Below are positions 491 through 19,646 of a stretch of 64,000 nucleotides of DNA, piece after piece (the first letter of the stretch is position 1; each line of letters starts with the position of its first letter). The position numbers and the translations under genes are program-made. The stretch spans positions 124,001 to 188,000 of the forward strand of contig NZ_JAQZAM010000003.1 in the NCBI RefSeq assembly GCF_028737215.1, given 5' to 3'. Source of the DNA: Actinomycetospora chibensis (GTDB lineage Bacteria; Actinomycetota; Actinomycetes; Mycobacteriales; Pseudonocardiaceae). Under the pieces are notes generated by a model that saw only the letters and a program-made list of their open reading frames with translations, had not been told where the DNA came from and did not search any database.

Positions 491-565
491 TCAGCCGCGA
501 CGACAGGTGCACGTCGCGAGGCGGCAGAGGTCGACGTGCAGACGTCGAACCAGGCCGGAGCTCAC
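491..565 (-). CDS. HVDL cysteine-rich leader peptide upstream of OsmC gene
   Basis: A GTG-started 24-codon ORF whose core reads RRLHVDLCRLATCTCRR, ending in TGA. A purine-rich site (AGGAAGG) precedes the start. Actinobacteria carry a family of short 'putative leader peptides' with this R-R-x-HVDL core in front of sulfur and cysteine genes. This copy has three Cys codons in its last 11 residues, suited to sensing charged tRNA-Cys by ribosome stalling. It would control the OsmC gene about 80 nt downstream. Too short for ordinary gene finders, it is supported by four similar ORFs elsewhere in this window. Confidence 0.75.
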   Translation of the reverse strand: MSSGLVRRLHVDLCRLATCTCRRG

Positions 566-618
566 ACCCACCTTCCTACCCGATCGCGCACAACCGGACC
601 AGTACCCTGCGGGCTCGA

Positions 619-1857
619 TCACCCACGGACCGTGGCCAGGGCGGCGTCGAGATCGGCGATCAGGTCGGCGGGGTCCTCGAGGCCCACGGAGAACCGCAGG
701 TGCCCGTGGCGCCGGAACTCGTCGGGCCAGCGTGCGGCCCGCGCCCCGGTCGTCCCGACGTGCACGATCAGGCTCTCGTCGTGGCCGAGGGAGACCGCCG
801 AGGTGATGACGCGCAGGTCGGCGACGAAGCGGTTCTGCAGGTCGGCGTCCCCGTCGAGGGCGAAGGCGAGCATCCAGCCGTACCCGCGCCCGCCGAGCAC
901 CCGGGTCGCGAGCTCGTGCTGCGGATGACCGGCGAGCCCCGGGTACGCGACGTAGGCGACGTCCGGGTGGCCGGCGAGGAACTCCGCGACGCGCTGGGCC
1001 GAGGCGAGGTGCTGGCGCAGCCGCAGCGGCAGGGTGATCGCCCCGCGGGCGATGAGCCACGCGTTGAACGGCGACACCACGCCGCCGACGTCGACCATCG
1101 CCTCGGCACGGATCGCGTCGATGTGCTCGCGGGCCCCGATCACCGCCCCGCCCATGGCGTCGCCGTGCCCGTTGATCACCTTGGTCAGCGAGTGCACGAC
1201 GAGGTCCGCGCCGTCGGCGAGCGGGCGGTAGAGCGGGGGCGGGGTGAATGTCGAGTCGACCGACAGCAGCGCGCCGCCTTCGTGTGCGATCTCCGCGATC
1301 GCGGCGACGTCGCACACCCGCGTCGTCGGGTTGGCGATCACCTCGGTGTGCACCAGCCGCGTCGTCGGCCGCATCGCCGCGCGCACGGCGTCCGGGTCGC
1401 TGGTGTCGACGAACGTCGCCTCGATGCCGTAGCGCGCCGGGAGGATGTCGGCGAAGAGCCGCCACGACGCCTCGTAGGTGACGTCGGAGACCACCGCGTG
1501 GTCACCGGTGCGCAGGAACGTGAAGAACACCCCGTGCAGCGCGGCGACCCCCGACGCGAGCACGACCGCGTCCTCGCCCTGCTCGAGGTGGGCGAGCTTC
1601 TGCTGCAGCGCGCGCTGGTTGGCGCCCGTGTTGCGGGTGTAGAGGGGCACGTCGAACCCCGACCACGACAGCTCCGAGGGGTCCTCGGGCAGCGCGTAGG
1701 AGTTCGCCATCACCAGCGGCGTGCGGATGGCGCCGCTGCCGGCGTCGACGGCGTTGCCGGCGTGCACGGCCTGGGTCGCGAAGCCGAGCGACTCGGGGCG
1801 TTCCTTGTCCGGACGGGGGTCGGCCACGCCGCGGATCGTCTCACCCACTCCAGCCAC
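619..1857 (-). CDS. PLP-dependent Cys/Met metabolism enzyme (C-S lyase or cystathionine synthase type)
   Basis: A 412-residue member of the Cys/Met-metabolism PLP family (cystathionine gamma-synthase, beta- and gamma-lyases). The Schiff-base lysine is Lys226 in VVHSLTKVINGHGD, and the PLP-phosphate region LYTRNTGAN and the motif ANPTTR near residue 175 are in place. Length is normal. The GTG start lies 3 bases after the stop of the upstream flavin monooxygenase, so it is the last gene of a four-gene operon (GNAT, LLM, LLM, this gene). In that setting cleavage of a C-S bond in a salvaged S-substituted cysteine is more likely than de novo methionine synthesis, but sequence alone does not separate beta-lyase from gamma-synthase. 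Confidence 0.85.
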   Translation of the reverse strand: MAGVGETIRGVADPRPDKERPESLGFATQAVHAGNAVDAGSGAIRTPLVMANSYALPEDPSELSWSGFDVPLYTRNTGANQRALQQKLAHLEQGEDAVVLASGVAALHGVFFTFLRTGDHAVVSDVTYEASWRLFADILPARYGIEATFVDTSDPDAVRAAMRPTTRLVHTEVIANPTTRVCDVAAIAEIAHEGGALLSVDSTFTPPPLYRPLADGADLVVHSLTKVINGHGDAMGGAVIGAREHIDAIRAEAMVDVGGVVSPFNAWLIARGAITLPLRLRQHLASAQRVAEFLAGHPDVAYVAYPGLAGHPQHELATRVLGGRGYGWMLAFALDGDADLQNRFVADLRVITSAVSLGHDESLIVHVGTTGARAARWPDEFRRHGHLRFSVGLEDPADLIADLDAALATVRG

Positions 1858-1860
1858 GCA

Positions 1861-3243
1861 TCAGGCGCGCGCCTCCGCCGGGCCGACGGTGGTGGGCGAG
1901 GGCTTCAGGCCGAGGTGCTCGCGCAGCGTCGTCCCCTCGTACTCGGTGCGGAACGAGCCCTTCTCCTGCAGCAGGGGCACCACCTGGTCGGCGAAGACGT
2001 CCAGCCCGCCCGGGGTGACGTGTGGGACGAGGACGAAGCCGTCGCTGGCGTCGGACTGCACGAACTCGTCGATGGTGTCGGCCACCCGCTGCGGCGTGCC
2101 GACGAACGTGTGGCGCCCGTTCTTGCGGATCACGACCTCACGCAGCGACAGGCCCTCGCGCTCGCCCAGCTCGCGCCACTCGTGCGCGATGGCGACCGGG
2201 TCCTTGTACATGCGCACGCTCGCGCGGCCCTTCGAGATGTGAGCGCCGCTGTCGACGTCGTCGGAGGTCTTCGGGTCGAACGACGGCACCGGGCCGTCGG
2301 GGTCGACGTCGGAGAGGTCGCGGTTCCAGATCTGCTCGGCGAAGGCGATCGCGGTCTGCGGCCCGACCTGCTGGTACTGCACCTGGCGCGCGTTCTCCGC
2401 CGCCTCCTCCTCGGTGTCGCCGAGGACGAACGTCGCAGCCGGCAGGATCTTGAGGTCCTCGTGGCGGCGCCCGAACTTCGCCAGGCGCGCCTTCACGTCG
2501 GCGTAGAACTCCTTGCCCGCCTCCAGCTCGGCGTGACGGGTGAAGATCGCGTCGGCGCTCGCGGCGGCGAACTCGCGCCCCTCCTCGGAGTCGCCCGCCT
2601 GGATGATCACCGGGTGGCCCTGCGGGCTGCGCGGGGTCGCGAACCGTCCCGAGATGTCGAACTGGTCGGAGTGCACCTCGAACCGGCCGGCGTCGCCGTG
2701 GCGCAGGTACCGCCCGGACGCGGCGTCGGCGACGACCTCGTCGACGTCCCATGCGTCCCACAGCGTCTTCGCGGTGGCCAGGAACTCCTGCGCGCGCAGG
2801 TAGCGCTTGTCCTTGGGCAGGTAGCCGCCGCGCCGGAAGTTCTCGCCGGTGAACTCGTCCCAGCTGGTCACGACGTTCCACGCCGCGCGGCCGCCGGAGA
2901 GGTGGTCGAGCGAGGCGAGCTTGCGGGCGACGTCGAGCGGCTCGTTGAACGTGGAGTTCACCGTGCCCGCGAGGCCGATCCGCTCGGTGACCGCGGCCAT
3001 CGCCATGAGGATCGAGACGTTGTCGGGGCGCCCGACGACATCGAGGTCGTAGATCTTGCCGCCCTGTTCACGCAGGCGCAGGCCCTCGGCGAGGAAGAGG
3101 AAGTCGAACTTCGCGCGCTCCGCGGTCTGCGCGAAGTGCCGGAAGGACTCGAACGCGATGTGGCTGCCGGCCGCCGGGTCGCTCCAGACGGTCGTGTTGT
3201 TGACGCCGGGGAAGTGGGCGGCGAGGTGGATCTGCTTGGGCAC
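1861..3243 (-). CDS. NtaA/SnaA/DszA-type FMN-dependent monooxygenase
   Basis: A 460-residue luciferase-like (LLM) flavin monooxygenase of the NtaA/SnaA/DszA group, which oxidises sulfones, sulfonates and aminocarboxylates with FMNH2 supplied by a separate reductase. It shows the long form with the typical LDHLSGGRAAWNVVTS and DEF.GENFRRGGYLPKDKRY segments and VIIQAGDSEEGREFAA. An open frame extends upstream of position 3243, but the GTG there is preceded by GGAGGAC at 7 nt and begins PKQIHLAAHFPGV, the family's normal N-terminus. It starts 10 bases after the upstream LLM gene. The substrate is unknown; operon context points to organosulfur scavenging. Confidence 0.88.
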   Translation of the reverse strand: MPKQIHLAAHFPGVNNTTVWSDPAAGSHIAFESFRHFAQTAERAKFDFLFLAEGLRLREQGGKIYDLDVVGRPDNVSILMAMAAVTERIGLAGTVNSTFNEPLDVARKLASLDHLSGGRAAWNVVTSWDEFTGENFRRGGYLPKDKRYLRAQEFLATAKTLWDAWDVDEVVADAASGRYLRHGDAGRFEVHSDQFDISGRFATPRSPQGHPVIIQAGDSEEGREFAAASADAIFTRHAELEAGKEFYADVKARLAKFGRRHEDLKILPAATFVLGDTEEEAAENARQVQYQQVGPQTAIAFAEQIWNRDLSDVDPDGPVPSFDPKTSDDVDSGAHISKGRASVRMYKDPVAIAHEWRELGEREGLSLREVVIRKNGRHTFVGTPQRVADTIDEFVQSDASDGFVLVPHVTPGGLDVFADQVVPLLQEKGSFRTEYEGTTLREHLGLKPSPTTVGPAEARA

Positions 3244-3253
3244 GGGGTCCTCC

Positions 3254-4399
3254 TCAGGCCGTGGCGTAACGGTCGGCGGGGTGCTCGAGACCGAGCAGAC
3301 CCCGCAGCGTGTCGGCGTGGTAGGCGGTGCGGTGGAGGCCGCGGCGCTGCAGCTCGGGCACGAGCTCGCGGGTGATGCGCGGCAGGTCGTGGGCGGCGAC
3401 GGCGGGACGCAGCCGGGCACCGGTCAGGCCGGCGTCCTGCCACGACGCGAGGACGTCGGCGACGTCGGCGGCCGTGCCGGCGAGGATGCGGGCGTCGCTG
3501 CGCAGCTCCGTGCCGTCGACGGCGTCGAGGCGGCGCAGGCGCTCGCGGGCGGCGTCGGCGGTGTCGTCGAGGAACACCAGCAGATCGCCGAAGACGTGCA
3601 GCGGGGTCGTGCGGTCGGTCGCGCCCTCGGCCGCCCGGACCTCGGCGAGGATCGAGGCCGCGTCTCCGGTCGGGCCGTCGCGGCCGGTGCCGTCCGGGGT
3701 CACGAAGACGACGTCGGCGCCGCGGGCGGCGAGCCGGTACGCGGTGTCGACGTGCGCGAGAGCCGTGACCACCGGCTGGCCCTGCGGCGGGCGCGGCGTG
3801 ATCGACGGGCCGCGCACCGAGAAGTGCGTGCCCTCGAAGTCGATGTAGTGCAGCTTCTCGCGGTCGATGAACCGGCCGGTCGCGGCGTCGCGGATCTCGG
3901 CGTCGTCCTCCCACGAGTCCCACAGCCGGCGCTGGACCTCGACGTGGTCGGCCGCCTCGCCGAAGAGCGACTCGCGGTCCTCCGGCTCGCGCCGTCCGAA
4001 CAGTGCGTACTCGGCCGGGTCGGACGAGACCTTGATCCGCTGCCCGGCGCGCCCGGAGGTGACCCAGTCCAGCGTCGCGATCTGGGTGGAGACGTGGAAC
4101 GGCTCGGTGTGGGTCGCGATGACCGTCGGCACCAGACCGATGTGCGACGTCACGGGGCCGACCCGCAGCGCGGTCAGCACCGCGTCGACGCGCCCCTGCA
4201 CCCGATCGGGGCGCTCGCTGCCCGGGAGGGCGAAGGCGTCCTCGAACGTGACGAGGTCGGCGAGCCCGGCCTCGGCCTCGCGCACCTGGTCGACCCAGAA
4301 GCCCGCGGTCAGCAGCTCGTCGGCGCGGGCGCCGGGTTCACGCCAGGACGCGGGGTGCCAGCCGGTGCCGTCGAGGGCGACCGCGAGGTGGAAGGTCAT
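3254..4399 (-). CDS. LLM class flavin-dependent monooxygenase (second in operon)
   Basis: A 381-residue luciferase-like protein, more divergent than its downstream neighbour but of the same group: DWVTSGRAGQRIKVSSDP corresponds to the SGGR.AWNVVTS region, and GPSITPRPPQGQPVV to the substrate-loop segment. Such proteins often come as unequal pairs in sulfur-scavenging operons. It lies 12 bases after the GNAT gene and 10 bases before the next LLM gene, so all four genes are probably one transcript. No reductase is encoded nearby, so FMNH2 would come from elsewhere. The substrate is not deducible. Confidence 0.82.
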   Translation of the reverse strand: MTFHLAVALDGTGWHPASWREPGARADELLTAGFWVDQVREAEAGLADLVTFEDAFALPGSERPDRVQGRVDAVLTALRVGPVTSHIGLVPTVIATHTEPFHVSTQIATLDWVTSGRAGQRIKVSSDPAEYALFGRREPEDRESLFGEAADHVEVQRRLWDSWEDDAEIRDAATGRFIDREKLHYIDFEGTHFSVRGPSITPRPPQGQPVVTALAHVDTAYRLAARGADVVFVTPDGTGRDGPTGDAASILAEVRAAEGATDRTTPLHVFGDLLVFLDDTADAARERLRRLDAVDGTELRSDARILAGTAADVADVLASWQDAGLTGARLRPAVAAHDLPRITRELVPELQRRGLHRTAYHADTLRGLLGLEHPADRYATA

Positions 4400-4411
4400 G
4401 GTCCTCCTGTC

Positions 4412-5122
4412 TCAGGCCCGGGCGGTGACGTCGCTCGGGACGGTGAGCGCCACGAAGTCCGGCCGGGCGCGCAGCCGGAACCCGAGGTGCTCGTAGAGCC
4501 GGATCGCGGTGGTGTTGTCCGCCGCGGCGTGCAGGAACGGGACCTCGCCGCGGGCACGGATGCCGGCCGCGACCGCGAGGACGAGCCGGGTCGCGAGCCC
4601 CCGCCCGCGGTGGTCCGCGTCGGTGCACACCGCGCTGATCTCGGTGTACCCCGGCGGGTGGAGGCGCTCACCCGCCATGGCGACGAGCACGCCGTCGACG
4701 ATGAGGCCCAGGTAGGTGCCCATCTCGACGGTGCGGCTGCCGAACGGCCCGGGGCGGGTGCGCGCGACGAGGTCGAGCATCGCGGGGACGTCGTCGGGGC
4801 CGAGGCGGACGGCCTCGGGGTCCGGGCGCCCGACGACACCATCGCCCACCATCTGCACGCCGGGCAGGAACATCCCGATCTCGAGGGGATCGGGCGGGTC
4901 GAGGGGCGCGAACGCCGGGATCACCGAGCGACCGTCGCCGACGAGGGCGGCGACGTCGTCCCACTCCGCGACGCCGTGCGGCTCCGCGAGGAACGGGGAG
5001 ACGTCGGGCTCGTAGCGGATCGCGAGCCCGTGGCGCTGCGCGAGGTGCGTGTGCGGACCGAGCAGGGCGGCCCGGACCGGGTCGTCGAGCGGTCCTGTCG
5101 CTGCGGATGCCACCTCCGGCAC
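4412..5122 (-). CDS. GNAT family N-acetyltransferase
   Basis: A 236-residue protein whose C-terminal half is a GNAT fold. The acetyl-CoA pyrophosphate loop is at about residues 165-181 (VCTDADHRGRGLATRLV) and the following NTTAIRLYEHLGF is the usual motif B. The first 100 residues are a divergent domain, perhaps a degenerate second GNAT. It is the first gene of the operon with two LLM monooxygenases and a C-S lyase. GNATs that N-acetylate S-alkylcysteines occur beside LLM monooxygenases in known salvage operons (Bacillus ytm/sna type), so that is a reasonable but unproven role. Confidence 0.83.
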   Translation of the reverse strand: MPEVASAATGPLDDPVRAALLGPHTHLAQRHGLAIRYEPDVSPFLAEPHGVAEWDDVAALVGDGRSVIPAFAPLDPPDPLEIGMFLPGVQMVGDGVVGRPDPEAVRLGPDDVPAMLDLVARTRPGPFGSRTVEMGTYLGLIVDGVLVAMAGERLHPPGYTEISAVCTDADHRGRGLATRLVLAVAAGIRARGEVPFLHAAADNTTAIRLYEHLGFRLRARPDFVALTVPSDVTARA

Positions 5123-5400
5123 AACCGCCCCGTCCCGGACGTCATTCCGAGGTGCGGGAGCGCCTACATCCGAGCCCGTGCGATGTCGTGGCGCGGCCGA
5201 GGCCGCACCTACCGGCGAATTGCTTCAGTTTCGGAAGCACTGAGGCGTGCCGGCTCCGACGAGGGCGCGGACCCGGGATCCGGGACCGCCGCCTCCTGTC
5301 CCCGCGACGCGAACGCTGGGCCGATAGGCGCAAAGTTCGCTCACGGGGGCTCGGAGCAGCGAGCATGGTCGTCCACCACCGAAGCAGGACGAGGACGACC

Positions 5401-5739
5401 ATGCTGAAGCTCTCGCTCGACGCCATGGCACGCCAGCAGCTCGCGGGGGCGCGCGCGAGCACCGCGGGCCGTGCCGCCCACACCGTCGTCGGCGGCCACT
5501 CGAACGTCATGCGGCAGACGGTGATCGCGCTGACCGAGGGTCGCCAGCTCGGCGAGCACGAGAACCCCGGCGAGGCCACCCTCGTCGTGCTGCAGGGGCG
5601 CGTGCGGCTGGTGTCGGACACGGACTCCTGGGACGGGCGGCGCGGCGACCTGCTCGTCATGCCCGACTCCCGCCACCGCCTCGAGGCCGTGGAGGACGCG
5701 GTCGTCCTGCTGACGGTGGCGAAGGTGGGTCAGAAGTAG
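5401..5739 (+). CDS. small cupin-domain protein
   Basis: A 112-residue single-domain cupin. The first cupin motif is the LGEHENPGEATLVVLQGRVRL stretch (residues about 52-71) and the second is around GDLLVMPDSRHRLEA. The metal-binding set is incomplete compared with enzymes, so a small-molecule-binding or stress role is as likely as catalysis. The ATG at 5401 was chosen because AGGACGAGGACG precedes it; the frame stays open further upstream without a better start. It is transcribed away from the GNAT operon, and its 3' end overlaps the oppositely oriented SfnB-like gene by 10 bases. Confidence 0.75.
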   Translation: MLKLSLDAMARQQLAGARASTAGRAAHTVVGGHSNVMRQTVIALTEGRQLGEHENPGEATLVVLQGRVRLVSDTDSWDGRRGDLLVMPDSRHRLEAVEDAVVLLTVAKVGQK

Positions 5740-8252: not shown

Positions 8253-8285
8253 TCGGAACCCCGGGACGTGGAGGCGCGGTGCTCG

Positions 8286-8366: not shown

Positions 8367-8498
8367 TCACGGCCACGGGGCGAGCGCGCCACGACGCGCG
8401 AGCTCGGGCAGGACGCCCTCGCCGACCTGGTAGGCCTCCTCGAGGTGCGGATGGCCCGACGGCGCGCGCGCGGGCGCGCTCGACTCGAGAGTGGACAC
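8367..8498 (-). pseudogene. ssuD deletion scar (C-terminal remnant, 43 codons)
   Basis: A GTG-started 43-codon frame. The first 14 residues are low-complexity. From there GHPHLEEAYQVGEGVLPELA and a short tail match the C-terminus of the intact SsuD encoded at 17068-18219 (GHPHLEEAYWVGEGVLPELG), in frame and with the stop a few residues after the match. About 340 codons are missing, so an ssuD gene was removed internally. The HVDL leader at 8541-8615 still sits in front, in the place expected for an intact sulfonate gene. It is unlikely to encode a working protein. Confidence 0.7.
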
Positions 8499-8540: not shown

Positions 8541-8615
8541 TCAGCGACAGGTGCCGTGGGCGGTGCGCATGAGGTCGACGTGGCGACGCCGCGTCAGATC
8601 CCGCCCCCGGCTCAT
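8541..8615 (-). CDS. HVDL leader peptide upstream of ssuD scar
   Basis: A 24-codon ATG-started ORF with core LTRRRHVDLMRTAHGTCR before TGA. It has a single Cys codon, third from the end counting the stop, as in the other copies. It belongs to the same leader family as the ORFs at 491-565, 16915-16974 and 19587-19646. It now leads only to a deleted ssuD, so it is either vestigial or has been recruited for the SsuD-like/SfnB-like pair further downstream. Confidence 0.7.
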   Translation of the reverse strand: MSRGRDLTRRRHVDLMRTAHGTCR

Positions 8616-8675: not shown

Positions 8676-8715
8676 GTGCGTGATCTTCCCGGCGATCGCC
8701 GGGAAGATCACGCAC
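8676..8715. repeat. 40-bp perfect palindrome
   Basis: GTGCGTGATCTTCCCGGC (8676-8693), the centre GATC, and the exact reverse complement of the arm (8698-8715): 40 bases with no mismatch. It lies between the divergent leader peptide (8615, minus) and the carbonic anhydrase (8947, plus), so it is not simply a 3' terminator. The arm starts GTGCG like several other hairpins in the window. It could be a cruciform-forming element, an operator or a stray member of the hairpin family. Confidence 0.7.
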
Positions 8716-8774: not shown

Positions 8775-8855
8775 ATGAGTCCCCGCGCCCTCGAGCCGTT
8801 CTGGCCGAGCCGGCGCGTGCAGGAGTTCGATCAATGGTGTCGACGGGCCGCGTGA
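8775..8855 (+). CDS. possible small ORF, 26 residues, unknown
   Basis: An ATG-started 26-codon ORF (MSPRALEPFWPSRRVQ... ending CRRAA) after a GGTGAG. Codon third positions are GC-rich, but less uniformly than in real genes here. I recognise no family. It may be a real small protein, a gene remnant, or chance. Confidence 0.2.
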   Translation: MSPRALEPFWPSRRVQEFDQWCRRAA

Positions 8856-9435: not shown

Positions 9436-9440
9436 CGATC

Positions 9441-10302: not shown

Positions 10303-11213
10303 GCCGCGTCCGGCAGGCCCGCCTCGAGGAGCACCTCGGTGCGCAGCTCGTGGGCGCCGTCGGCGCGGGTGGCCTCCCAGTAGAGGCGGCGCACGCCGGC
10401 GACGTCCGCGACGGCGACGTAGCGCAGGCCGCGGCCCGCGTGGGGCGACTCGGCGGCCGGGGCGTCGCCCTCGGCCACGAAGCGCCCGTGACCGGTCGCG
10501 CGGGCCAGGCCCGTGCGCTCCTCCCAGTTCTCGGCCGCGGTGGCGCGCCCGTCGTACGTCGCGACGATCTCGTCGCCGACCGGCACCACGGCGCTGATCC
10601 GGACGCCGCGGGAGTCCCAGGTGCCGGGCCGGGGCGCGAGCGCCGTGCCCTGCCACGTCCACGCCAGCCCGTCCGGGCTCGTCGCGTACTCGGTGGTCAT
10701 GCGGTCGGTGGCGTCCGGGTCGTCGAGCGGGTGCACCGACGCCCAGAGGTGCCAGCCCGCCGCGTCCCGCAGCACCACCGGGTCCTTGACGGCGTGCAGG
10801 GCGTCGCCGGGCAACACCGTCCGCCGCGGCGCCAGGGCGAGCCCCTCGGGGGTGTCGGCCTCGAGGACGTCGACCCACCAGTGCTTGGTGCCCGGCGTCG
10901 CGCAGCTGACGTAGAGCCGCCAGCGGCCGTCGTCGGCCCGCACGAGCGCGGGACGCTCCAGCGACTCGGCGCCGAACGCGTCCTTCTCCACCACCGCGAG
11001 CGTCTCGAACGCGACCCCGTCGGCCGAGCGGGCGACGACGTTGGCGTAGCCGCGCCCGACACCCTCGGGCTGGCGCAGCCGGTAGGACAGGTACACGGCG
11101 TCGTCGACGACGAGCACGGTGGGCGCCCCCGCCCAGTACCCCGGTGCGTCGACGGGCGGCGCGACGACGACCGTGCCTTCGCCCAGGGGGACCGGGATGC
11201 TCGTGACGCTCAT
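10299..11213 (-). CDS. beta-propeller protein of GH43/GH32/GH68-like fold
   Basis: A 304-residue protein with the repeated pattern of five-bladed glycosidase-type propellers: GAPTVLVVDDAVYLSYR, RPALVRADDGRWRLYVSC, KDPVVLRDAAGWHLWAS, and MTTEYATSPDGLAWTWQG. No signal peptide is visible, so it appears cytoplasmic. It is coupled by ATGA overlaps to cysC upstream and the sulfotransferase downstream, which ties it to sulfation. It could act on, or bind, the glycan that is sulfated. Catalytic acids cannot be assigned with confidence, and activity is not claimed. Confidence 0.7.
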   Translation of the reverse strand: MSVTSIPVPLGEGTVVVAPPVDAPGYWAGAPTVLVVDDAVYLSYRLRQPEGVGRGYANVVARSADGVAFETLAVVEKDAFGAESLERPALVRADDGRWRLYVSCATPGTKHWWVDVLEADTPEGLALAPRRTVLPGDALHAVKDPVVLRDAAGWHLWASVHPLDDPDATDRMTTEYATSPDGLAWTWQGTALAPRPGTWDSRGVRISAVVPVGDEIVATYDGRATAAENWEERTGLARATGHGRFVAEGDAPAAESPHAGRGLRYVAVADVAGVRRLYWEATRADGAHELRTEVLLEAGLPDAA

Positions 11214-11833
11214 GGTGCCGTCCTCGCCGACGTCGGTGTCGCGGGCTGCTGCGTGAGACCCCGCCGGTACAGATGATCCACGAGCAGGTCCACCGACTCG
11301 TCGACGGACTGCGCGTGGCTGGGGATCTCGAGGTCCGGGGACTCGGGCACCTCGTAGGGGTCGTCGACGCCGGTCAGCCCCTGCACCTCGCCGGTGCGCT
11401 GGCGGGCGTAGAGGCCCTTGACGTCGCGCTCACCCGCGACCTCCACGGGGGTGGACACGTAGACCTCGAGGAAGGGCGTCCCGCCGCCGACGTGGCTGGC
11501 GCGGACCTGTTCCCGCACGTCGGCGTGCGGAGCGATCGCCGCGACCAGCACGATCACGCCGTTGCGCGCGAGCATCTCGGCGACGAAGCCGATCCGGCGG
11601 ATGTTGATCGCGCGGTCCTCGCGGGAGAAGCCGAGACCCCGCGAGAGGTTCTCGCGGATGATGTCGCCGTCCAGCACCTCGACCCCGCAGCGTTCGAGGC
11701 GCAGGCGGGCGGCGACGCCGCCCGCGATCGTCGACTTGCCCGCGCTGGGCAGGCCGGTCAGCCAGATCGTGGCGCCACCGGCGCAGGGGTGTTCGTGCGG
11801 TGGCTGGAAGTGGTGTGCGTTCTCGTCCGGCAT
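11210..11833 (-). CDS. cysC: adenylylsulfate (APS) kinase
   Basis: A 207-residue APS kinase making PAPS from APS and ATP. The P-loop is GLPSAGKST (residues 27-35), followed by the family's DGDIIRENLSRGLGFSREDR and the RVxE-equivalent FLEVYVSTP and GLYARQRTGEVQGLTGVDDPYE stretches. ATG 11833 was preferred over a GTG at 11941, because the extra N-terminus is low-complexity and is explained by an HVDL-coding stretch in another frame. Because the CysH here has the APS-reductase iron-sulfur cysteines, PAPS is probably not needed for assimilation and instead feeds the sulfotransferase encoded two genes on. Confidence 0.92.
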   Translation of the reverse strand: MPDENAHHFQPPHEHPCAGGATIWLTGLPSAGKSTIAGGVAARLRLERCGVEVLDGDIIRENLSRGLGFSREDRAINIRRIGFVAEMLARNGVIVLVAAIAPHADVREQVRASHVGGGTPFLEVYVSTPVEVAGERDVKGLYARQRTGEVQGLTGVDDPYEVPESPDLEIPSHAQSVDESVDLLVDHLYRRGLTQQPATPTSARTAP

Positions 11834-11958
11834 GGCGGGTCGCTCCGGGGCGGCTCGGGGTCGGGTGTCGGGGAGCTCGCCCGACAGCCGCTCGCCCCGG
11901 TGCGCCGCAGGTCGACGTGGCGGCGCCGGGTGAGCCGCCACCCCGGCCCGGCCCTCAC
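11758..11958 (-). CDS. HVDL leader-like ORF between cysN and cysC
   Basis: A GTG that overlaps the cysN stop codon (GTGA) opens a 66-codon frame whose residues 9-20 read LTRRRHVDLRRT, followed by GASGCRAS. This is the same RR-x-HVDL...CRAS pattern as the free-standing leaders, although it then reads on into the cysC start region in a different frame. Ribosomes finishing cysN could re-initiate here, so it may be an internal attenuator setting cysC expression. It may also be a decayed leader from a former cysC promoter. Confidence 0.4.
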   Translation of the reverse strand: MRAGPGWRLTRRRHVDLRRTGASGCRASSPTPDPEPPRSDPPCRTRTHTTSSHRTNTPAPVAPRSG

Positions 11959-13244: not shown

Positions 13245-13246
13245 CG

Positions 13247-14161
13247 CTAGAAATAGCCCTCTCGCTTGCGGTCCTCCATGGCGGCCTCCGACAGGCGGTC
13301 GTCGGCCCGGGTCGCACCACGTTCGGTGAGGCGGCTCTCGCGCACCTCGTCGAGCACCTCGTCGAGCGTCAGGGCGTCCGACTCGACCGCGCCCGTGCAG
13401 GAGCCGTCGCCGACCGTGCGGTAGCGCACGGTCTTGGTGACGACCTCCTCGTCGTCCTTCGGTCCGCCCCACGGACCGCTGGTCAGCCACATCCCGTCGC
13501 GGGAGAACACCTCGCGCGTGTGCGCGTAGTAGATCGACGGGAGCTCGACGCCCTCGCGCTGGATGTAGCGCCAGACGTCGAGCTCGGTGAAGTTCGACAG
13601 CGGGAACACGCGCACGTGCTCAGCGGGCTTGTGACGTCCGTTGTAGAGGTTCCACAGCTCGGGCCGCTGGCGCGACGGCTCCCACTGGCCGAAGGCGTTG
13701 CGCAGGCTGAACACGCGCTCCTTGGCGCGCGCCCGCTCCTCGTCGCGGCGTCCGCCGCCGAAGACCGCGTCGTGGCGGTGCTCGGCGATGGCGTCGAGCA
13801 GCGGCGTCGTCTGCAGCGGGTTGCGGGTGCCGTCCGCGCGCTCCTCGAGGCGACCGTCGTCGATGTAGTCCTGGACGCGCGCGACCTCGAGCTCGAGCCC
13901 GTAGCGCTCGACGACGGCGTCCCGGAACTCGATCACCTCGTCGAAGTTGTGCCCGGTGTCGACGTGCAGCACCGGGAACGGGATCGGCGCGGGCCAGAAC
14001 GCCTTGCGCGCGAGGTGCACCAGCAGCATCGAGTCCTTGCCGCCGGAGAAGAGGATCACCGGGCGGTCGAACTCGCCCGCGACCTCGCGCATGATGTGGA
14101 TCGCCTCGGACTCGAGGGCGCTGAGTTGATCCGTGCTGGTCGCCGGCTCCGTGGCGGTCAT
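13247..14161 (-). CDS. cysD: sulfate adenylyltransferase small subunit
   Basis: A 304-residue CysD, the PP-loop ATPase half of ATP sulfurylase that forms APS with CysN. The PP motif is SGGKDS at residues 39-44, and the C-terminus has the conserved RYRTVGDGSCTGAVES, RLTERGATRADDR and the final KREGYF. The ATG overlaps the cysH stop (ATGA), so translation is coupled. Operon order: sulfite reductase, zinc ribbon, cysH, cysD, cysN, cysC. Confidence 0.96.
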   Translation of the reverse strand: MTATEPATSTDQLSALESEAIHIMREVAGEFDRPVILFSGGKDSMLLVHLARKAFWPAPIPFPVLHVDTGHNFDEVIEFRDAVVERYGLELEVARVQDYIDDGRLEERADGTRNPLQTTPLLDAIAEHRHDAVFGGGRRDEERARAKERVFSLRNAFGQWEPSRQRPELWNLYNGRHKPAEHVRVFPLSNFTELDVWRYIQREGVELPSIYYAHTREVFSRDGMWLTSGPWGGPKDDEEVVTKTVRYRTVGDGSCTGAVESDALTLDEVLDEVRESRLTERGATRADDRLSEAAMEDRKREGYF

Positions 14162-14883
14162 CCGTGCAGCCCGCACTCGGTCTTGGAGAAGCCCGCCCAG
14201 CGCCCGCTGCGCGGGTCGGCGCCCGGGGCCGGCTTGGCGGTGCAGGGTGCGCAGCCGATCGAGGGGTAGCCCGCCTCGACCAGCGGGTTCACGAGCACCG
14301 CGTGCTCGCGGATGTAGGCGTCCATCTGCTCGTCGGTCCAGTGGGCGATCGGGTTGATCTTGACGAGGTCGTGGCGCTCGTCCCAGGTGACCAGGGGCGT
14401 CGCCGCGCGGGTCGGGGCCTCGACGCGGCGGACGCCGGTGACCCAGGCGTCGTAGCGCGCGAGCGTCTTCTTCAGCGGCTCGACCTTCCGCATGTTGCAG
14501 CACTGGCCGGGGTCGACGGCGAAGAGGTCCGTGCCGAACGCCGCGTCCTGCTCGGCGACGGTGAGCTCGGGCTCGGCCTGGACGATGGTGACGCCGTAGG
14601 TCTGGGCCACGGCGTCGCGGGTCCCGAGGGTCTCGGCGAAGTGGTAGCCGGTCTCGAGGAACAGGACGTCGACTGCCGGACGGGCGGCGGCACCCAGCTC
14701 GACGAGCACGGCGTCCTGCATGTTCGAGGCGACGATGAGGCCCTCGCCGAACGTCTCCGCAGCCCAGGCGAGGATCTCGCGGGTCAGCTCCTCGTGGCTC
14801 ACCGTGCCTTCGCGCGCCGCGAACCGCGCACCGGCCTCCAGGGCGGCGGTGCGGAGGTCTTCTCGGGTGTCCGTGGTGGTCAT
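14158..14883 (-). CDS. cysH: adenylylsulfate reductase, iron-sulfur type
   Basis: A 241-residue phosphoadenylyl/adenylyl-sulfate reductase family protein. It has the four iron-sulfur cysteines of the APS-reductase subgroup, Cys128-Cys129 (GQCCNMRK) and Cys211/Cys214 (GCAPC), plus the catalytic ECGLHG at the C-terminus (Cys237). Enzymes with this set reduce APS directly with thioredoxin, bypassing PAPS. GAGGACC precedes the ATG, and the start overlaps the stop of the small zinc-ribbon gene. This assignment makes the PAPS-forming CysC downstream available for sulfation. Confidence 0.94.
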   Translation of the reverse strand: MTTTDTREDLRTAALEAGARFAAREGTVSHEELTREILAWAAETFGEGLIVASNMQDAVLVELGAAARPAVDVLFLETGYHFAETLGTRDAVAQTYGVTIVQAEPELTVAEQDAAFGTDLFAVDPGQCCNMRKVEPLKKTLARYDAWVTGVRRVEAPTRAATPLVTWDERHDLVKINPIAHWTDEQMDAYIREHAVLVNPLVEAGYPSIGCAPCTAKPAPGADPRSGRWAGFSKTECGLHG

Positions 14884-15035
14884 GCTGGTCCTCTCACCGG
14901 CTCTGTCCTCGCGGACGCCGGGGTGACGACGAAGGTGCTGCGGCAGTCGGAGCACTCCCACGCGCCGTCCGGTTCTTCACGAGGACGCAGGTCCTGCTCC
15001 CCGCAGTACGGGCAGTACTGCAGTGCCAACCTCAT
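14880..15035 (-). CDS. 51-residue zinc-ribbon protein in sulfate-reduction operon
   Basis: A tiny protein with two CxxC pairs, YCPYCGEQDL (near residue 8) and WECSDCRSTF (near residue 28), so probably a single zinc ribbon. Both ends overlap their neighbours by ATGA (sulfite reductase upstream, cysH downstream), so it is translated in step with them. Actinobacterial sulfite-reductase/cysH operons commonly carry a small ORF here. Its function is not established; a metal-binding or redox helper of sulfite reductase or CysH is a guess. Confidence 0.8.
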   Translation of the reverse strand: MRLALQYCPYCGEQDLRPREEPDGAWECSDCRSTFVVTPASARTEPVRGPA

Positions 15036-16804
15036 GTCAGCTGTCCTTCTTCCGCCCGGACGACCCACTGGGCGAAGCGCTCGCCGGCCTCGTGCTGCTC
15101 GGCGTAGGCGCGCACGACGCGCTCGACGTAGTCGCCGAGGTCGTCGGAGAGCACCTTGTGGCCGCGCAGCTTGCGCCCGAAGCCGGCGTCGAGGCCGAGG
15201 CCGCCGCCGAGGTGCACCTGGAAGCCTGCGGCCGGGTTGCCCTCGGCGTCGTTGACGATCTGGCCCTTGAGCCCGATGTCGGCGACCTGGACACGCGCGC
15301 AGGAGTTCGGGCAGCCGTTGAGGTGGATCGACACCGGGTGCTCGAGGGAGTCCTGGACGTCGGCGAGGCGCCGGTCGAGCTCCTCGACCAGCTCGCCGGC
15401 GCGATTCTTGGTGTCGACGAACGCGAGCTTGCAGAACTCCAGGCCGGTGCACGCCATCGTCGCCCGGCGCCACGGCGTCGGGCGGGCCGGGAGGCCGAGG
15501 TGGTCGAGCGCGGCGGTGAGCCCGTCGAGCTTCTCGCCGGGCACGTCCAGCACGAGGATCTTCTGGTACGGCGTGAGCCGGACGCGGCCCGACCCCGCCT
15601 CCTCGGCGGCCTTCGCGACGCCCACGAGCGTCGAGCCGCTGGTGCGGCCGGCCGGCGGCGCCACCCCGACGTAGTGATTGCCGTCGATCTGGTCGTGGAT
15701 GCCGATGTGGTCGATGGTGCCGGCGATCGCCTCCGGCGCCGGCCCGTCGAGCATCTTCCGGCCCAGGTACTCGTCCTCCATGACCTGGCGGAACTTCTCG
15801 GGGCCCCAATCGGCGATGAGGAACTTGATGCGCGCGCGGGTGCGCAGGCGCCGGTAGCCGTAGTCGCGGAAGACCTGCACCACGGCGTGCCAGACGTCGG
15901 CGACCTCGTCCAGCGGCACCCAGGCGCCGAGACGCACGGCGAGCTTCGGGTTGGTGGAGAGCCCGCCGCCGACGTGCACGTCGAAGCCCGGGCCGTGCTC
16001 GGGGTGGTCCACCCCGACGAACGAGACGTCGTTGACCTCGTGCGCGACGTCCTGCTGGCCGGAGATCGCCGTCTTGAACTTGCGCGGCAGGTTGGCCAGC
16101 GAGCGGTCGCCGATGAAGCGCTCGACGATCTGGTCGATGGCCGGCGTGCCGTCGATGATCTCGTCGGCGCTGATCCCGGCCACGGGCGAGCCGAGGACGA
16201 CGCGGGGGCAGTCGCCGCACGCCTCGGTGGTGTAGAGGTCCACCGCCTCGAGCCGGCGCCAGATCTCCGGCATGTCCTCGACGCGGATCCAGTGCAGCTG
16301 GATGTTCTCGCGGTCGGTGACGTCGGCGGTGTCGCGGGCGAAGGTCTGGGAGATCTCGCCGATGACGCGCAGCTGCTCGGTGGAGAGCGCCCCGCCGTCG
16401 ACGCGCACCCGGAGCATGAAGTGCGACGCGTCGAGCTCCTCCTCCTCGACGTGGCCGGTGGCGGTGCCGGGGAAGCCCTCGGCGCGCTGGGTGTAGAGGC
16501 CCATCCAGCGGAAACGGCCGCGGAGGTCGGCCGGGTCGATCGAGTCGAAGCCGCGGTGGGCGTAGATGTTCTCGATGCGCGCCCGCACGTTGAGCGGGTG
16601 GTCGTCCTTCTTGGACTGCTCGTTCTTGTTCAGCGGCTCGCGGTAGCCCAGCGCCCACTGGCCCTCGGCCTTACCCTTGCGCGCCCGGGCGGGCTTGGGC
16701 TTCGGCGGGGCGTCCTCGGTGGCCCCGGGGTGACGGAGCGGAGTGGTCTCCGCGTACGACTCCTCCGAGGTCGTGGCGTTCTCGGACGAGGGGGCGTCAG
16801 CCAT
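15032..16804 (-). CDS. sir: ferredoxin-dependent sulfite (nitrite/sulfite) reductase
   Basis: A 590-residue siroheme/4Fe-4S reductase converting sulfite to sulfide. It has two ferredoxin-like half domains and two siroheme domains. The cluster-bridging cysteines are in CTGLEFCKLAF and HLNGCPNSCARVQVADIG, and GDCPRVVLG marks the first half repeat. The N-terminal 40 residues are a variable tail. It is the first gene of the assimilatory operon; an HVDL leader peptide ends 110 nt upstream, and a GTGGAAA-N14-ATGGCACG element lies further up. In actinobacteria this family is the assimilatory sulfite reductase (NirA/Sir); nitrite as substrate is the alternative. Confidence 0.93.
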   Translation of the reverse strand: MADAPSSENATTSEESYAETTPLRHPGATEDAPPKPKPARARKGKAEGQWALGYREPLNKNEQSKKDDHPLNVRARIENIYAHRGFDSIDPADLRGRFRWMGLYTQRAEGFPGTATGHVEEEELDASHFMLRVRVDGGALSTEQLRVIGEISQTFARDTADVTDRENIQLHWIRVEDMPEIWRRLEAVDLYTTEACGDCPRVVLGSPVAGISADEIIDGTPAIDQIVERFIGDRSLANLPRKFKTAISGQQDVAHEVNDVSFVGVDHPEHGPGFDVHVGGGLSTNPKLAVRLGAWVPLDEVADVWHAVVQVFRDYGYRRLRTRARIKFLIADWGPEKFRQVMEDEYLGRKMLDGPAPEAIAGTIDHIGIHDQIDGNHYVGVAPPAGRTSGSTLVGVAKAAEEAGSGRVRLTPYQKILVLDVPGEKLDGLTAALDHLGLPARPTPWRRATMACTGLEFCKLAFVDTKNRAGELVEELDRRLADVQDSLEHPVSIHLNGCPNSCARVQVADIGLKGQIVNDAEGNPAAGFQVHLGGGLGLDAGFGRKLRGHKVLSDDLGDYVERVVRAYAEQHEAGERFAQWVVRAEEGQLT

Positions 16805-16914
16805 GGGTCGGGGTTCCTCCGGGGTGGTGCACGGGCGCGCACGGGCATGACGAGGTGGCCCTCGATGCGGTGGTGCGCGGGTCCCGCTGGGATGTGGTGG
16901 CGGTGCGGGCGCGC

Positions 16915-16974
16915 TCAGGAAGCCCGGCAGAGGGCGCTGGCCTGGCGCGCGAGGTCGACGTGACGTCGGCTCAC
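16915..16974 (-). CDS. HVDL leader peptide of the sulfate-assimilation operon
   Basis: A 19-residue peptide, GTG start, reading MSRRHVDLARQASALCRAS. It precedes the sulfite reductase gene by 110 nt. One Cys codon lies 4 codons before the stop, as in the paralogous leader at 19587-19646. Stalling at this Cys codon when tRNA-Cys is uncharged is the inferred switch for the whole assimilation operon. The element GTGGAAA-N14-ATGGCACG lies 33 nt upstream of its start. Confidence 0.78.
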   Translation of the reverse strand: MSRRHVDLARQASALCRAS

Positions 16975-17007
16975 GAGGAGCTCACCCGGCGCGCACATAC
17001 CCACGAG

Positions 17008-17036
17008 CGTGCCATGAGCAGGGCATCCTTTTCCAC
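17008..17036 (-). promoter_or_regulatory. GTGGAAA-N14-ATGGCACG element upstream of sir leader
   Basis: On the minus strand GTGGAAA (17036-17030), 14 nt, then ATGGCACG (17015-17008), 33 nt before the leader start codon. The same two boxes with the same spacer occur before the leader of the MFS/ssuD operon. The layout is that of a promoter with -35 and -10 boxes, or a bipartite operator. It is inferred from two sites only. Confidence 0.5.
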
Positions 17037-17067
17037 GTGACCTTTGGCCTAGGGGGTTGCCTGTCGG

Positions 17068-18219
17068 CTACTGGGCGAAGGGGATCGCGGCCGGGGCCTT
17101 CTCCTGCTCACCGGCGGGGTGGCTCCACAGCCCGCGACGACCGAGCTCGGGCAGGACGCCCTCGCCGACCCAGTACGCCTCCTCCAGGTGGGGGTGCCCC
17201 GAGAGGACGAACTCGGTGATGCCGAGGTCGTAGTACTCCTGGATCCGGTCGGCGACCTCGGTGTGGCTGCCGACCAGCGCCGTTCCCGCGCCCCCACGCA
17301 CCAGGCCCACGCCCGCCCACAGGTTGGGGGAGACCTCGAGGTCCGCGGCGGTCGTCGAGCCCCCGGAGTGCAGCGCCCGCATGCGCTTCTGGCCCTCGGA
17401 CTCGCTCCGCGACAGGCCCGCCTGTACCTCCTCGATCATCGAGTCGGGGATACCGGCCAGGTACTGCTCGGCCTGCGCCCAGGCGGCGTCGGACGTGTCG
17501 CGCGCGATGACGTGCAGGCGGATGCCGAAGCGGACCTCACGGCCCTGCGCGGTCGCCAGCCCACGGATCCACTCGACCTTCTCGCGCACCTGCTCAGGGG
17601 GCTCGCCCCAGGTCAGGTAGACGTCGACGTGCTGTGCGGCGACCTCGCCGGCCTTGGGCGAGGAGCCGCCGAAGTAGAGCGGCGGCACCGGGTCGGGCAC
17701 GCGGGTCAGCGCCGCGGAGTCGACGTGGATCTGCTCGCCGTGCAGCGTCACCGTCTCGCCGGCCCACAGCCGGCGCACGACGTCGAGGAACTCCCCGGTG
17801 CGGGTGTAGCGGTCGTCCTTGCCGAGGTAGTCGCCGTACGCGCGCTGCTCGGACGGCTCCCCGCCGGTGACGACGTTGAGCAGCAGTCGGCCCTGCGAGT
17901 GCCGCTGGAACGTGGCCGCCTGCTGCGCGGCGAGCGTGGGGGACAGGACGCCGGGCCGGAACGCGACGAGGAACTTCAGCCGCTCGGACTCGGCGACGAG
18001 CATCGCCGTGGTGAGCCAGGCGTCCTCGCACCAGGCGCCGGTCGGCGTCAGGGCGCCCTCGAAGCCGACGGTTTCGGCGGCGCGGGCGATCTGCGCGAGG
18101 TAGCCGATCTCGGCGGGCCGGACGGCGTCGGCCGCCCGCGTGGCGACGCCATGACCGCCGCCGACGAGGCCGCGCGAGTCGCCGTAGGTGGGCAGGAACC
18201 AGTGGGCGGTGAGGCTCAT
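17068..18219 (-). CDS. ssuD: FMNH2-dependent alkanesulfonate monooxygenase
   Basis: A 383-residue SsuD, releasing sulfite and an aldehyde from alkanesulfonates with FMNH2 and O2. Typical features: HWFLPTYGDSRGL at the N-terminus, GALTPTGAWCEDAW, RLLLNVVTGGEPSEQRAYGD, and RYTRTGEFLDVVRRLW. It starts 7 bases after the MHS-transporter stop, so the two are one operon under an HVDL leader. No ssuABC ABC importer is linked; the MFS carrier is the likely partner for uptake. The C-terminal GHPHLEEAYWVGEGVLPELG is the segment surviving in the scar at 8367-8498. Confidence 0.92.
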   Translation of the reverse strand: MSLTAHWFLPTYGDSRGLVGGGHGVATRAADAVRPAEIGYLAQIARAAETVGFEGALTPTGAWCEDAWLTTAMLVAESERLKFLVAFRPGVLSPTLAAQQAATFQRHSQGRLLLNVVTGGEPSEQRAYGDYLGKDDRYTRTGEFLDVVRRLWAGETVTLHGEQIHVDSAALTRVPDPVPPLYFGGSSPKAGEVAAQHVDVYLTWGEPPEQVREKVEWIRGLATAQGREVRFGIRLHVIARDTSDAAWAQAEQYLAGIPDSMIEEVQAGLSRSESEGQKRMRALHSGGSTTAADLEVSPNLWAGVGLVRGGAGTALVGSHTEVADRIQEYYDLGITEFVLSGHPHLEEAYWVGEGVLPELGRRGLWSHPAGEQEKAPAAIPFAQ

Positions 18220-18226
18220 GAATCTC

Positions 18227-19555
18227 CTAGAGCGTCTCGAGGGGCGTCGCCCGCAGGGCGGCGACCGCGCTGACGACCCCGGCGAGCGCGAGGTAGCCGG
18301 CGGCGAGCCACGGCGTGCCGCCGGCGGCGGCGAGCAGCGAGGTCAGGATCAGCGGGGTCAGGCCGGAGGCGTAGATCCCGCCGCTCTGGAAGGCCAGGGA
18401 CATGCCCGTGTAACGGGTGCGGGTGGGGAAGACCTCGGCGAAGAGCGTCGACTCCGCGCCGCTGGCCAGGCCGTAGGACAGGCCGAGCATCACGATCAGC
18501 ACGGCCGTGACGGCGACGATCGACCTCGTCCCGAGCAGGGCGAACGCGGGGAAGACGCCGACGACGAGGATCACGCACCCGACGGCGAAGACCTTCCCGC
18601 GCCCGATCCGATCACCCCACGCCCCGGCCAGCGGGACGACCATCGCGCTGACCACCGCAGCGATGGTCACCGCCACGAGCACGTCGGTGCGCGGCATCTT
18701 CAGCGTCGCCACCGTGTAGGTCAGGACGAAGACGCCCCACGTGTTGAACGACGCGCCCTCGGCCCAGCGGGCGAGCAGCGTCCAGCCGAGGTTGCGCCGC
18801 GACGGCGGGTCGCGCAGGACGTCGACGGCCGGGACGCGCGAGACCTCGGCGGCGGCCTGCATGCGTCGGAACGCGGGGGTCTCCATCACCGCGAGGCGCA
18901 CGACGAGCCCGACGGCGACGAGCACGAGGCTCGCGATGAACGCCACGCGCCAGCCCCACGAGAGGAACGCGGCGTCGTCCATCACGAGGCCGAGCAGGGC
19001 GAACACGCCGGTGCCCAGCGCGAGGCCGAGCCCCAGACCGATCTGCGGGGTGGCGCCGTAGAGGCCCCGCTTGCCGGGCGGGGCGTACTCGACGGCCATG
19101 AGCACCGCGCCGCCCCACTCGCCGCCGATCGCGATGCCCTGGATCACCCGGAGCACCACGAGCAGGATCGGCGCCGCCACCCCGATCGCCGCGTAGGTCG
19201 GCAGGAAGCCGATCGCGGCCGTGGCGATCCCGGTCAGCGCCATCGTCACGATCAGCGTCTCGCGACGGCCGACGCGGTCGCCGATGTGCCCGAAGATCAG
19301 GCCGCCGATCGGCCGGGCGACGAAGCCGATCGCGAAGGTGGCGAAGGAGAGCAGGGTCGCGACCGTCGGGTCGCTCTGTCCGCCTCCTTCTTGGCTCCCG
19401 TAGAACAGCTGCGGGAAGACGATCCCCGCGGCCGTGGCGAACAGGAAGAAGTCGTACCACTCGATCGTGGTGCCGATCAGCGACGCGATCAGGACGGTGC
19501 GCGGGCTGGTGTCGGGACCGTCGACGGGACGCGTGGCAGCGGCGGACGTGGTCAT
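18227..19555 (-). CDS. MFS transporter, metabolite:H+ symporter (MHS) type
   Basis: A 442-residue, 12-helix carrier. It has the MHS-family hallmarks: SLIGTTIEWYDFFLFATAAG at the start, FGHIGDRVGRRETL after helix 2, and GGEWGGAVLMAVEYAPPGKRG in helices 4-5. MHS carriers import carboxylates, betaine-like compounds or shikimate with protons. Its position between an HVDL leader (31 nt upstream) and ssuD argues that it imports a sulfonate or another organosulfur source. The ATG is preceded by GAGGACCCCC. Confidence 0.88.
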   Translation of the reverse strand: MTTSAAATRPVDGPDTSPRTVLIASLIGTTIEWYDFFLFATAAGIVFPQLFYGSQEGGGQSDPTVATLLSFATFAIGFVARPIGGLIFGHIGDRVGRRETLIVTMALTGIATAAIGFLPTYAAIGVAAPILLVVLRVIQGIAIGGEWGGAVLMAVEYAPPGKRGLYGATPQIGLGLGLALGTGVFALLGLVMDDAAFLSWGWRVAFIASLVLVAVGLVVRLAVMETPAFRRMQAAAEVSRVPAVDVLRDPPSRRNLGWTLLARWAEGASFNTWGVFVLTYTVATLKMPRTDVLVAVTIAAVVSAMVVPLAGAWGDRIGRGKVFAVGCVILVVGVFPAFALLGTRSIVAVTAVLIVMLGLSYGLASGAESTLFAEVFPTRTRYTGMSLAFQSGGIYASGLTPLILTSLLAAAGGTPWLAAGYLALAGVVSAVAALRATPLETL

Positions 19556-19586
19556 GGGGGTCCTCTGCTCGGTGGGCGGGCGGGGG

Positions 19587-19646
19587 TCAGCCCGCGCGGC
19601 AGAGGGCGCTCGCGAGCCGGCCGAGGTCGACGTGGCGACGGGCCAC
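19587..19646 (-). CDS. HVDL leader peptide of the MHS-transporter/ssuD operon
   Basis: A GTG-started 19-residue peptide, MARRHVDLGRLASALCRAG. It is nearly identical in plan to the leader of the sulfite reductase operon, including the LASALCRA end with one Cys codon. It stops only 31 nt before the transporter start, so translation of the leader can directly affect the transporter ribosome site. The GTGGAAA-N14-ATGGCACG element sits 32 nt upstream. Confidence 0.78.
   Translation of the reverse strand: MARRHVDLGRLASALCRAG

Follow-up and report, generated by a model that had tools for sequence, protein, structure and literature searches.

Short HVDL open reading frames before sulfur genes of Actinomycetospora chibensis as putative cysteine-sensing leader peptides with a Cys codon at a fixed distance

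The stretch analyzed here, hereafter the window (64 kb; positions 124,001 to 188,000 of contig NZ_JAQZAM010000003.1 of Actinomycetospora chibensis), contains five short open reading frames (ORFs) on the minus strand that encode peptides with an R-x-HVDL core and a Cys codon 11 codons past the His (codons are numbered relative to this His, hence +11), and these are best read as leader peptides. An initial annotation had described four of them (491-565, 8541-8615, 16915-16974, and 19587-19646; ORF1 to ORF4) as sharing an R-R-x-HVDL core and a C-terminal Cys codon. The four are real, all on the minus strand (the plus strand at the same coordinates encodes unrelated peptides), and each has the Cys codon; the core, the starts, and the number require correction. 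R-R-x-HVDL applies to ORF1 and ORF2 and not to ORF3 and ORF4, R-x-HVDL being common to all four, and a fifth leader, in front of cysC, was missing from the list. Eight stretches of the window encode HVDL: the five on the minus strand are the leaders, and the three on the plus strand are not leader-like. In all, the window holds five leaders and the genome twelve.

Leader 1 (ORF1), 491..571, minus strand: in-frame GTG starts at 571 and 565, with a further one at 622; Cys +11 is TGT (505-503)
Leader 2 (ORF2), 8541..8615, minus strand: ATG 8615; Cys +11 is TGT (8549-8547)
Leader 3 (ORF3), 16915..16998, minus strand: ATG 16998 the more likely start; Cys +11 is TGC (16929-16927)
Leader 4 (ORF4), 19587..19670, minus strand: GTG 19670 the more likely start; Cys +11 is TGC (19601-19599)
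Leader 5, 11884..11958 (range ending at the Cys codon), minus strand: GTG 11958; HVDL at 11919; Cys +11 is TGT (11886-11884)

The minus-strand translations are VSSGLVRRLHVDLCRLATCTCRRG (ORF1), MSRGRDLTRRRHVDLMRTAHGTCR (ORF2), VSRRHVDLARQASALCRAS (ORF3), and VARRHVDLGRLASALCRAG (ORF4), each followed by a stop codon. Leader 1 has Cys codons at +4, +9, and +11, which are not adjacent; ORF2 to ORF4 as first delimited have a single Cys each, and the cysC leader has one up to +11. Of 153 unique leaders, 137 have Leu at -5, and this conservation makes ATG 16998 (ORF3) and GTG 19670 (ORF4) likelier starts than the GTG 16974 and GTG 19646 first proposed; the longer ORF3 start would place a further Cys after the start codon. 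The GTG of leader 5 overlaps the cysN stop, and 50 nt separate its Cys codon from the cysC start; its frame, lacking an early stop, continues to 11758 within cysC, out of frame. Two similar leaders (L127 and L099) have the early stop that this frame lacks.

The genes behind the five leaders are the following.

Start at 408, minus strand: OsmC-family gene, behind leader 1
8367..8498, minus strand: 43-aa fusion remnant (MFS gene start joined to SsuD C-terminus), behind leader 2
11210..11833, minus strand: cysC, adenylylsulfate kinase (ATG 11833), behind leader 5
15032..16804, minus strand: ferredoxin-type sulfite/nitrite reductase gene, behind leader 3
17068..18219, minus strand: alkanesulfonate monooxygenase-like gene (ssuD), behind leader 4 with the MFS gene
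18227..19555, minus strand: MFS transporter gene, behind leader 4

The initial annotation placed each ORF before a sulfur-related unit; ORF2, however, does not directly precede an intact one. The first 13 residues of the remnant behind it are 69% like the MFS gene start found behind similar leaders (L126 and L127), the next 24 are 92% identical to the SsuD C-terminus, and the next intact gene encodes a luciferase-like monooxygenase (start 8047); the operon behind leader 2 seems to have been lost by deletion, with the leader itself left intact. Leader 3 precedes the sulfite reductase gene (start 16804; 110 nt from leader stop to gene start), cysH, cysD, and cysN; among the best 80 of 514 matches, the nearest relatives of this reductase are from Actinomycetospora, with A. 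callitridis at 97% in the best segment.

ORF1, ORF3, and ORF4 belong to NCBIfam NF042934 ('cis_reg_atten', "putative leader peptide"), the kind of annotated actinobacterial family that the initial annotation had mentioned. They score 35.7, 32.6, and 32.8 bits, respectively, against a cut-off of 27 (with one M prefixed to ORF3 and ORF4 to reach the 20-residue minimum), and 33.5, 32.2, and 36.6 bits in their own frames. ORF2 (23.5 bits) and the cysC leader (17.5 bits) fall below this cut-off; both are recovered by A5, a wider profile built from 69 leaders (E 4.1e-7 and 9.5e-7, respectively). It is doubtful that standard gene callers would miss all four ORFs, as had been expected, because NCBIfam is used in NCBI annotation and has a model that three of the four pass. 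The models NF042933 and NF042936 (cut-off 45) are not reached by the window ORFs, and at gathering scores Rfam gives no leader or riboswitch in the whole window, only a tRNA at 61041-61113.

NF042934 matches occur in 59 of 60 sampled genomes of the family at E <= 0.01 (0 of 14 control genomes in the same search), in all 18 genomes of the genus, and in 16 of 296 genomes of the phylum at E <= 1e-4 with 29 candidates scored per genome, A. chibensis being included in each count; A5 gives 4-25 matches in each of the 18 genus genomes. The whole-genome search that the initial annotation had proposed, here done with A5, yields 12 strong leaders in A. chibensis (E <= 3.5e-6, the next match having only 0.011), eight of them between C33:118437 and C33:143649, about 25 kb. 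Good support exists for a leader-peptide family that precedes sulfur genes and makes up a small regulon, one with more members than the four first described. The initial interpretation is right in kind, but the kind was already known, the family having been annotated before.

In a wider set of 208 leaders, a rule-based choice finds a downstream gene close behind 198; these genes were not curated, and some calls look spurious (e.g., L021 at 1506 and L112 at 2094). Pfam comparison of 195 of the 198 downstream proteins gave sulfite/nitrite reductase half-domain (36), luciferase-like monooxygenase (24), MFS (18), OsmC (15), SDF symporter (14), ABC permease (12), TauE (11), acyl-CoA dehydrogenase N-domain (6), APS kinase (4), TauD (4), and Cys/Met enzymes (4), the remainder being other families or none. 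The families behind most leaders fit sulfur uptake and assimilation; for the transporters and oxidoreductases, the sulfur role is in part one that we take to apply from general knowledge.

The Cys codon stands at a fixed place. Among 147 short RxHVDL ORFs, Cys is at +11 in 142 and at +4 in 28, the set having been selected in part with a model in which the Cys column is represented; because the loci of the leader set were fetched by NF042934 hits, this column is partly conditioned. The least biased count comes from 31 regions (L099-L129) of 16 congeners, chosen as hit clusters and scanned without a Cys requirement for ORFs stopping within 30 codons: of 73 unique ORFs, 69 have Cys at +11, four have a stop there, and none has anything else. 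Likewise, 80 of 80 named sulfite-reductase loci (the best 80 of 514) have RxH[VI]D[LFY]x7C upstream; in the mycobacterial members, Cys is added at +7, +9, or +10 and the +11 Cys is kept. Many leaders share ancestry, so that leader counts are not counts of independent events.

The codon at +11 is TGT in 152 of 199 unique leaders (identical cores counted once), against 9.3% of Cys codons in the background; at other positions of these peptides, 77 of 86 Cys codons are TGC and nine are TGT. By downstream-gene cluster, TGT is in the majority in 31 of 34. Exceptions are leaders 3 and 4 and 46 of the 80 named sulfite-reductase loci, all with TGC; for the ORF4 group this may be explained by the codon being part of a helix with the ribosome-binding site (RBS) of the next gene. 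A hairpin between the Val-Asp and Cys-Arg codons was rejected as the cause of TGT for lack of covariation. Arg(-2) and Asp(+2) are also in rare codons (GAT in 52 of 199 against 3.8% in the background), for which no explanation was found.

Selection acts on the leader peptide, to judge by its codons. In 593 ortholog pairs (leaders within one downstream-gene cluster), the nine conserved codons differ at.062,.011, and.263 in codon positions 1, 2, and 3, respectively; codons -5 to +11 differ at.154,.101, and.331, and the flanks at about.6 in all three positions. Codons for Leu(+3) are CTC 74 and CTG 70 (background.49 and.48), and residue +3 is Leu in 39, Phe in 28, and Tyr in 13 of the 80 named sulfite-reductase loci. 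Because third positions vary most and the Leu codons follow the background, HVDL is conserved as peptide; with the third positions of His and Val less free, some RNA constraint may act in addition.

Ten leaders have a stop codon, TGA or TAG, exactly at +11 (L100, L103, L109, L112, L115, L119, L186, L202, L229, and L230; L100, L103, and L115 share one core). Six are Actinomycetospora leaders before the same luciferase-like gene, one is from another genus of the family, and three are from family f5. All ten keep RxH[VI]DLxRxxSAx and match NF042934 only up to profile position 17 or 18 of 19; five have no Cys at all. They were drawn from 20 rows without Cys at +11, of which six were dropped as chance matches without His in the core (L109 at 14764, L116, L124, L125, L145, and L152); three of these six also carry Glu for Asp, and one, L145 (VVDLRHGVPAR followed by a stop), which also ends at +11, is included in the set of 208. 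Four other leaders have neither Cys nor a stop at +11 (L026, L191, L226, and L228). In A. chibensis itself, the apparent counterpart of the genus stop-type leader, at C33:121432, has a different gene behind it and a decayed peptide. Readthrough is unlikely because two similar leaders have TAG (L229) and TGA (L230), and a reading of the TGA as Sec or Cys was ruled out on the same pair. Directly behind four of the stop-class leaders (L112, L119, L100, and L109) lies a hairpin in which 85% of cells pair, compared with 40-45% after sliding; two-sided changes are absent from its pairs, and it is not the fold that RNAalifold selects.

Part of the set has upstream sequences that resemble promoters. 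In 37 of 74 pairings TTGAC precedes an in-frame start by 36-37 nt, as against 0 of 19 out of frame, and 28 of 57 TANNNT elements have an in-frame start 6-8 nt downstream (452 starts), as against one of 14 out of frame (244 starts); for a subset of the 208 leaders, this geometry is probably that of leaderless transcripts. A block TGGAA-N16/17-GGCACG begins 71-73 nt before the His in ten of the 208 leaders (0.32 expected), ORF3 and ORF4 included; in the window it stands on the minus strand near 17035 and 19706, before the leaders of the sulfite-reductase and MFS genes, and could possibly be a special promoter or an activator site. The cysC leader sits inside an operon.

A route from leader to downstream gene is clearest at leader 4, where the Cys codon lies in CCUCUGC (19605-19599), which is complementary to the following element.

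19562..19568, minus strand: GCAGAGG, the RBS of the MFS gene

In leader 4 and five orthologs, all seven pairs of CCUCUGC:GCAGAGG are present in all six sequences, and the helix is present in the predicted fold of leader 4. Across 173 leaders that passed filters (35 gene clusters), codons 5-11 pair most with the ribosome-binding region (.06-.10 per nt, swapped controls giving.03-.04); by cluster, this pairing is high chiefly in the MFS, cysC, and TauD groups. Opening of the RBS on a simulated stall at +11 exceeds that of swapped controls in 23 of 35 clusters (Wilcoxon p =.021), and a mask at +11 opens it more than a mask at +4 (p =.0003). Consensus folds of other groups differ. In the sulfite-reductase group (14 sequences), a five-pair helix joins leader codons -5/-4 to the start-codon region; one of its pairs shows a two-sided change in six of the 14 sequences and one is broken in two, and a separate intergenic hairpin has some two-sided changes; neither element involves the Cys codon. 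The OsmC-group consensus fold has no pair changed on both sides, and that of a second MFS group is weak. The modeled RNA evidence is good for the ORF4 helix and uneven elsewhere.

By relation to reported mycobacterial leaders, the best reading of these findings is that cysteine is sensed by translation. Each element would be a leader peptide gene, part of the set probably being transcribed leaderless from its own start codon. A ribosome translating ...L-[VT]-x-R-x-H-V-D-L-x-R-x-x-S-x-x-Cys would have a single Cys codon at a fixed place to decode, an obligatory one 11 codons past the His and usually two to four codons ahead of the stop. When Cys-tRNA is short, the ribosome would pause at +11, covering codons of about +6 to +15 (an assumed footprint), and would thereby free RNA that otherwise hides the RBS of the downstream sulfur gene. 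We assign this sequence of leader translation, pausing, and RBS release a probability of roughly 0.78. Translation in the cell, pausing, the response to cysteine, and the direction of control are what we infer, and the other leaders of the window may share the RNA step of leader 4.

Several observations weigh against the proposed mechanism. The leader 4 helix gives no covariation because its pairs never vary in the six sequences. Pairing of codons 5-11 with the RBS is above the swapped control in only 16 of 35 clusters (p =.29). In the largest cluster, which has 35 sulfite-reductase leaders including leader 3, pairing does not exceed control (.75 against.79). A mask at +11 does not differ significantly from masks at +14, +16, or +18 (p =.68,.35, and.16, respectively), and a simulated stall barely alters opening at leaders 1, 3, and 4 (.42 to.43,.63 to.59, and.52 to.52, respectively). 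For opening of the RBS by a stalled ribosome as a general rule, the results are mixed. The overlap of leader 5 with cysN and its missing early stop are also unfavorable, as is the existence of leaders with no Cys codon.

Other explanations account for part of this evidence. If control acted on transcription, free translation of the leader would let Rho or a terminator stop RNA polymerase before the sulfur genes, and pausing would prevent this. Such control would agree with the sulfite-reductase leaders that lack RBS pairing above control and with the 110 nt between the stop of leader 3 and the next start, and PMC1262725 names Rho-dependent termination among the possibilities for the cys leaders of mycobacteria; nevertheless, we consider it unlikely, given the position of leader 5 inside an operon with its Cys codon so near the cysC start, and given that no Rfam attenuator was found in the window at gathering scores, no separate search for Rho sites or terminators having been made. 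That HVDL is conserved as RNA, either as a strand opposing the RBS or as a hairpin with the Cys-Arg codons, is much less probable still. The GACCUCU of ORF1 is complementary to AGAGGUC before the OsmC gene, and third positions show somewhat more constraint in the His and Val codons than in the Leu and Arg codons, but third positions as a whole change far more than first and second ones, the Leu codons track the background, and pairing of HVDL codons with the RBS lies below swapped controls (higher in nine of 35 clusters, p =.016). Similarly, TGT-CG could pair with the Val-Asp CGAC in 92 of 152 TGT leaders, and the A8 consensus fold has a Val-Asp:Cys-Arg helix in 9/9, yet covariation is absent, the 92 full pairings comparing with 94.6 ± 4.3 after shuffling. 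An RNA element in HVDL is unsupported by codon usage, codon-position rates, and swapped folding. Least credible of all is that the short ORFs encode functional small proteins that do not act in cis: the conservation is indeed at the peptide level, but the ORFs are multi-copy, have a gene of one of many different families close behind in 198 of 208 cases, usually end two to four codons past the Cys (56 of 69 Cys leaders in the congener clusters), and have decayed in the A. chibensis leader at C33:121432, whose gene seems lost.

The Cys codon by itself, through which the initial annotation had these leaders sense cysteine, leaves unexplained the conserved peptide, the fixed +11 distance, and the leaders that end at +11, of which some lack Cys. 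A possible, if not the probable, answer is that the nascent chain assists the pause: R-x-HVDL, which with codon +11 in the A site would lie some 7-12 residues away from the peptidyl-transferase centre, would slow the ribosome from within the exit tunnel at +11, whether Cys or stop, so that cysteine sensing would be a combined property of peptide and codon, compatible with the translational reading preferred here. Conservation at the peptide level with free third positions, the fixed +11 position, the retention of the peptide in ten stop-class leaders (five of them Cys-less), and its decay at C33:121432, where a different gene follows, all point this way. On the other side, the exact place of the stop is expected because a single nonsense mutation of TGY suffices, the stop class comprises about four lineages, a small number, and four more leaders lack both Cys and a stop at +11; such a mutation does not by itself explain why the peptide is kept. 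Taken together, conservation, spacing, TGT, and the stop class suggest, and do not prove, that the nascent chain programs the pause. We advance more tentatively the specific proposal that R-x-HVDL-x7-[Cys/stop] is a nascent-chain ruler, setting a pause at +11, normally at a rare, wobble-read TGT, with the stop subclass pausing at termination.

Two features of the region around leader 2 stand apart from the leader family. A palindromic repeat of about 40 bases (8676-8715) matches itself on both strands, and many copies of it, 81-90% identical, are scattered through the genome. On the plus strand, a short ORF at 8775-8855 (MSPRALEPFWPSRRVQEFDQWCRRAA followed by a stop) is possibly another kind of leader; very similar peptides occur at three congener loci (L116, L124, and L125), and the plus-strand gene downstream of it was read by eye as carbonic anhydrase.

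Cysteine leaders carry the annotation 'putative' and are taken to act through their Cys codons. A conserved peptide set a constant number of codons ahead of one Cys codon, often a rare one, before many different sulfur genes allows a sharp test of peptide versus codon, for which the leaders with a stop at +11 are natural controls. Peptide-level selection looks new, and so do the ruler, the preference for TGT, and the stop class; these last three did not turn up in searches of listings and passages of open-licence papers, and the text of open-licence PMC papers gave no match for 'HVDL' with 'leader peptide'.

A 2020 study by Canestrari et al. is reportedly the primary one on mycobacterial polycysteine leaderless short ORFs. 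Cysteine-dependent attenuation by mycobacterial leaders is described in passages of PMC9031893 and PMC13236596, and their cysteine response also in passages of PMC9094748, PMC4633059, and PMC1262725; upstream ORFs stand before nirA/Msmeg_4527 and cysA2/Msmeg_5788, according to a passage of PMC4633059. The present leaders resemble these in the sulfite reductase downstream, in being short, and in having Cys near the stop, and the A. chibensis leader at C52:32277 precedes a protein read as of cysA2 type. Mycobacterial members of the family end, for example, in HVDFKRVCSCCCLP and a stop, and the named mycobacterial sulfite-reductase loci keep HVD[FL]/HID[FL] and a TGT Cys codon at +11. In contrast, a run of consecutive Cys codons, the trait of mycobacterial attenuators, is found neither in ORF1 to ORF4 nor in the cysC leader: leaders 2 to 5 have a single Cys, and one leader lies inside an operon. 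Seliverstov et al. (2005; PMC1262725), in the passages available, predicted cys leader peptides, short ORFs with Cys codons before actinobacterial cys operons, and found no terminator; theirs differ in having runs of Cys codons near the stop, and those passages are without HVDL, a fixed spacing, or RBS pairing. NF042934 has the same HVDL core, with ORF1, ORF3, and ORF4 above its cut-off and ORF2 and the cysC leader below it, and its function is only "putative" by the model name.

In TnaC-type arrest peptides, the pause is programmed by the peptide and free tryptophan is sensed. If the peptide programs the pause in the present leaders as well, the two would be alike in the fixed codon, including a stop codon, and would differ in that the thing sensed here would be the supply of Cys-tRNA. 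Were the ruler true, a single Cys codon would do the work of the mycobacterial run of Cys codons, which would explain why one codon suffices and change how amino-acid attenuators are recognized, and a widespread family of amino-acid leaders would be hybrids with arrest peptides rather than simple codon counters.

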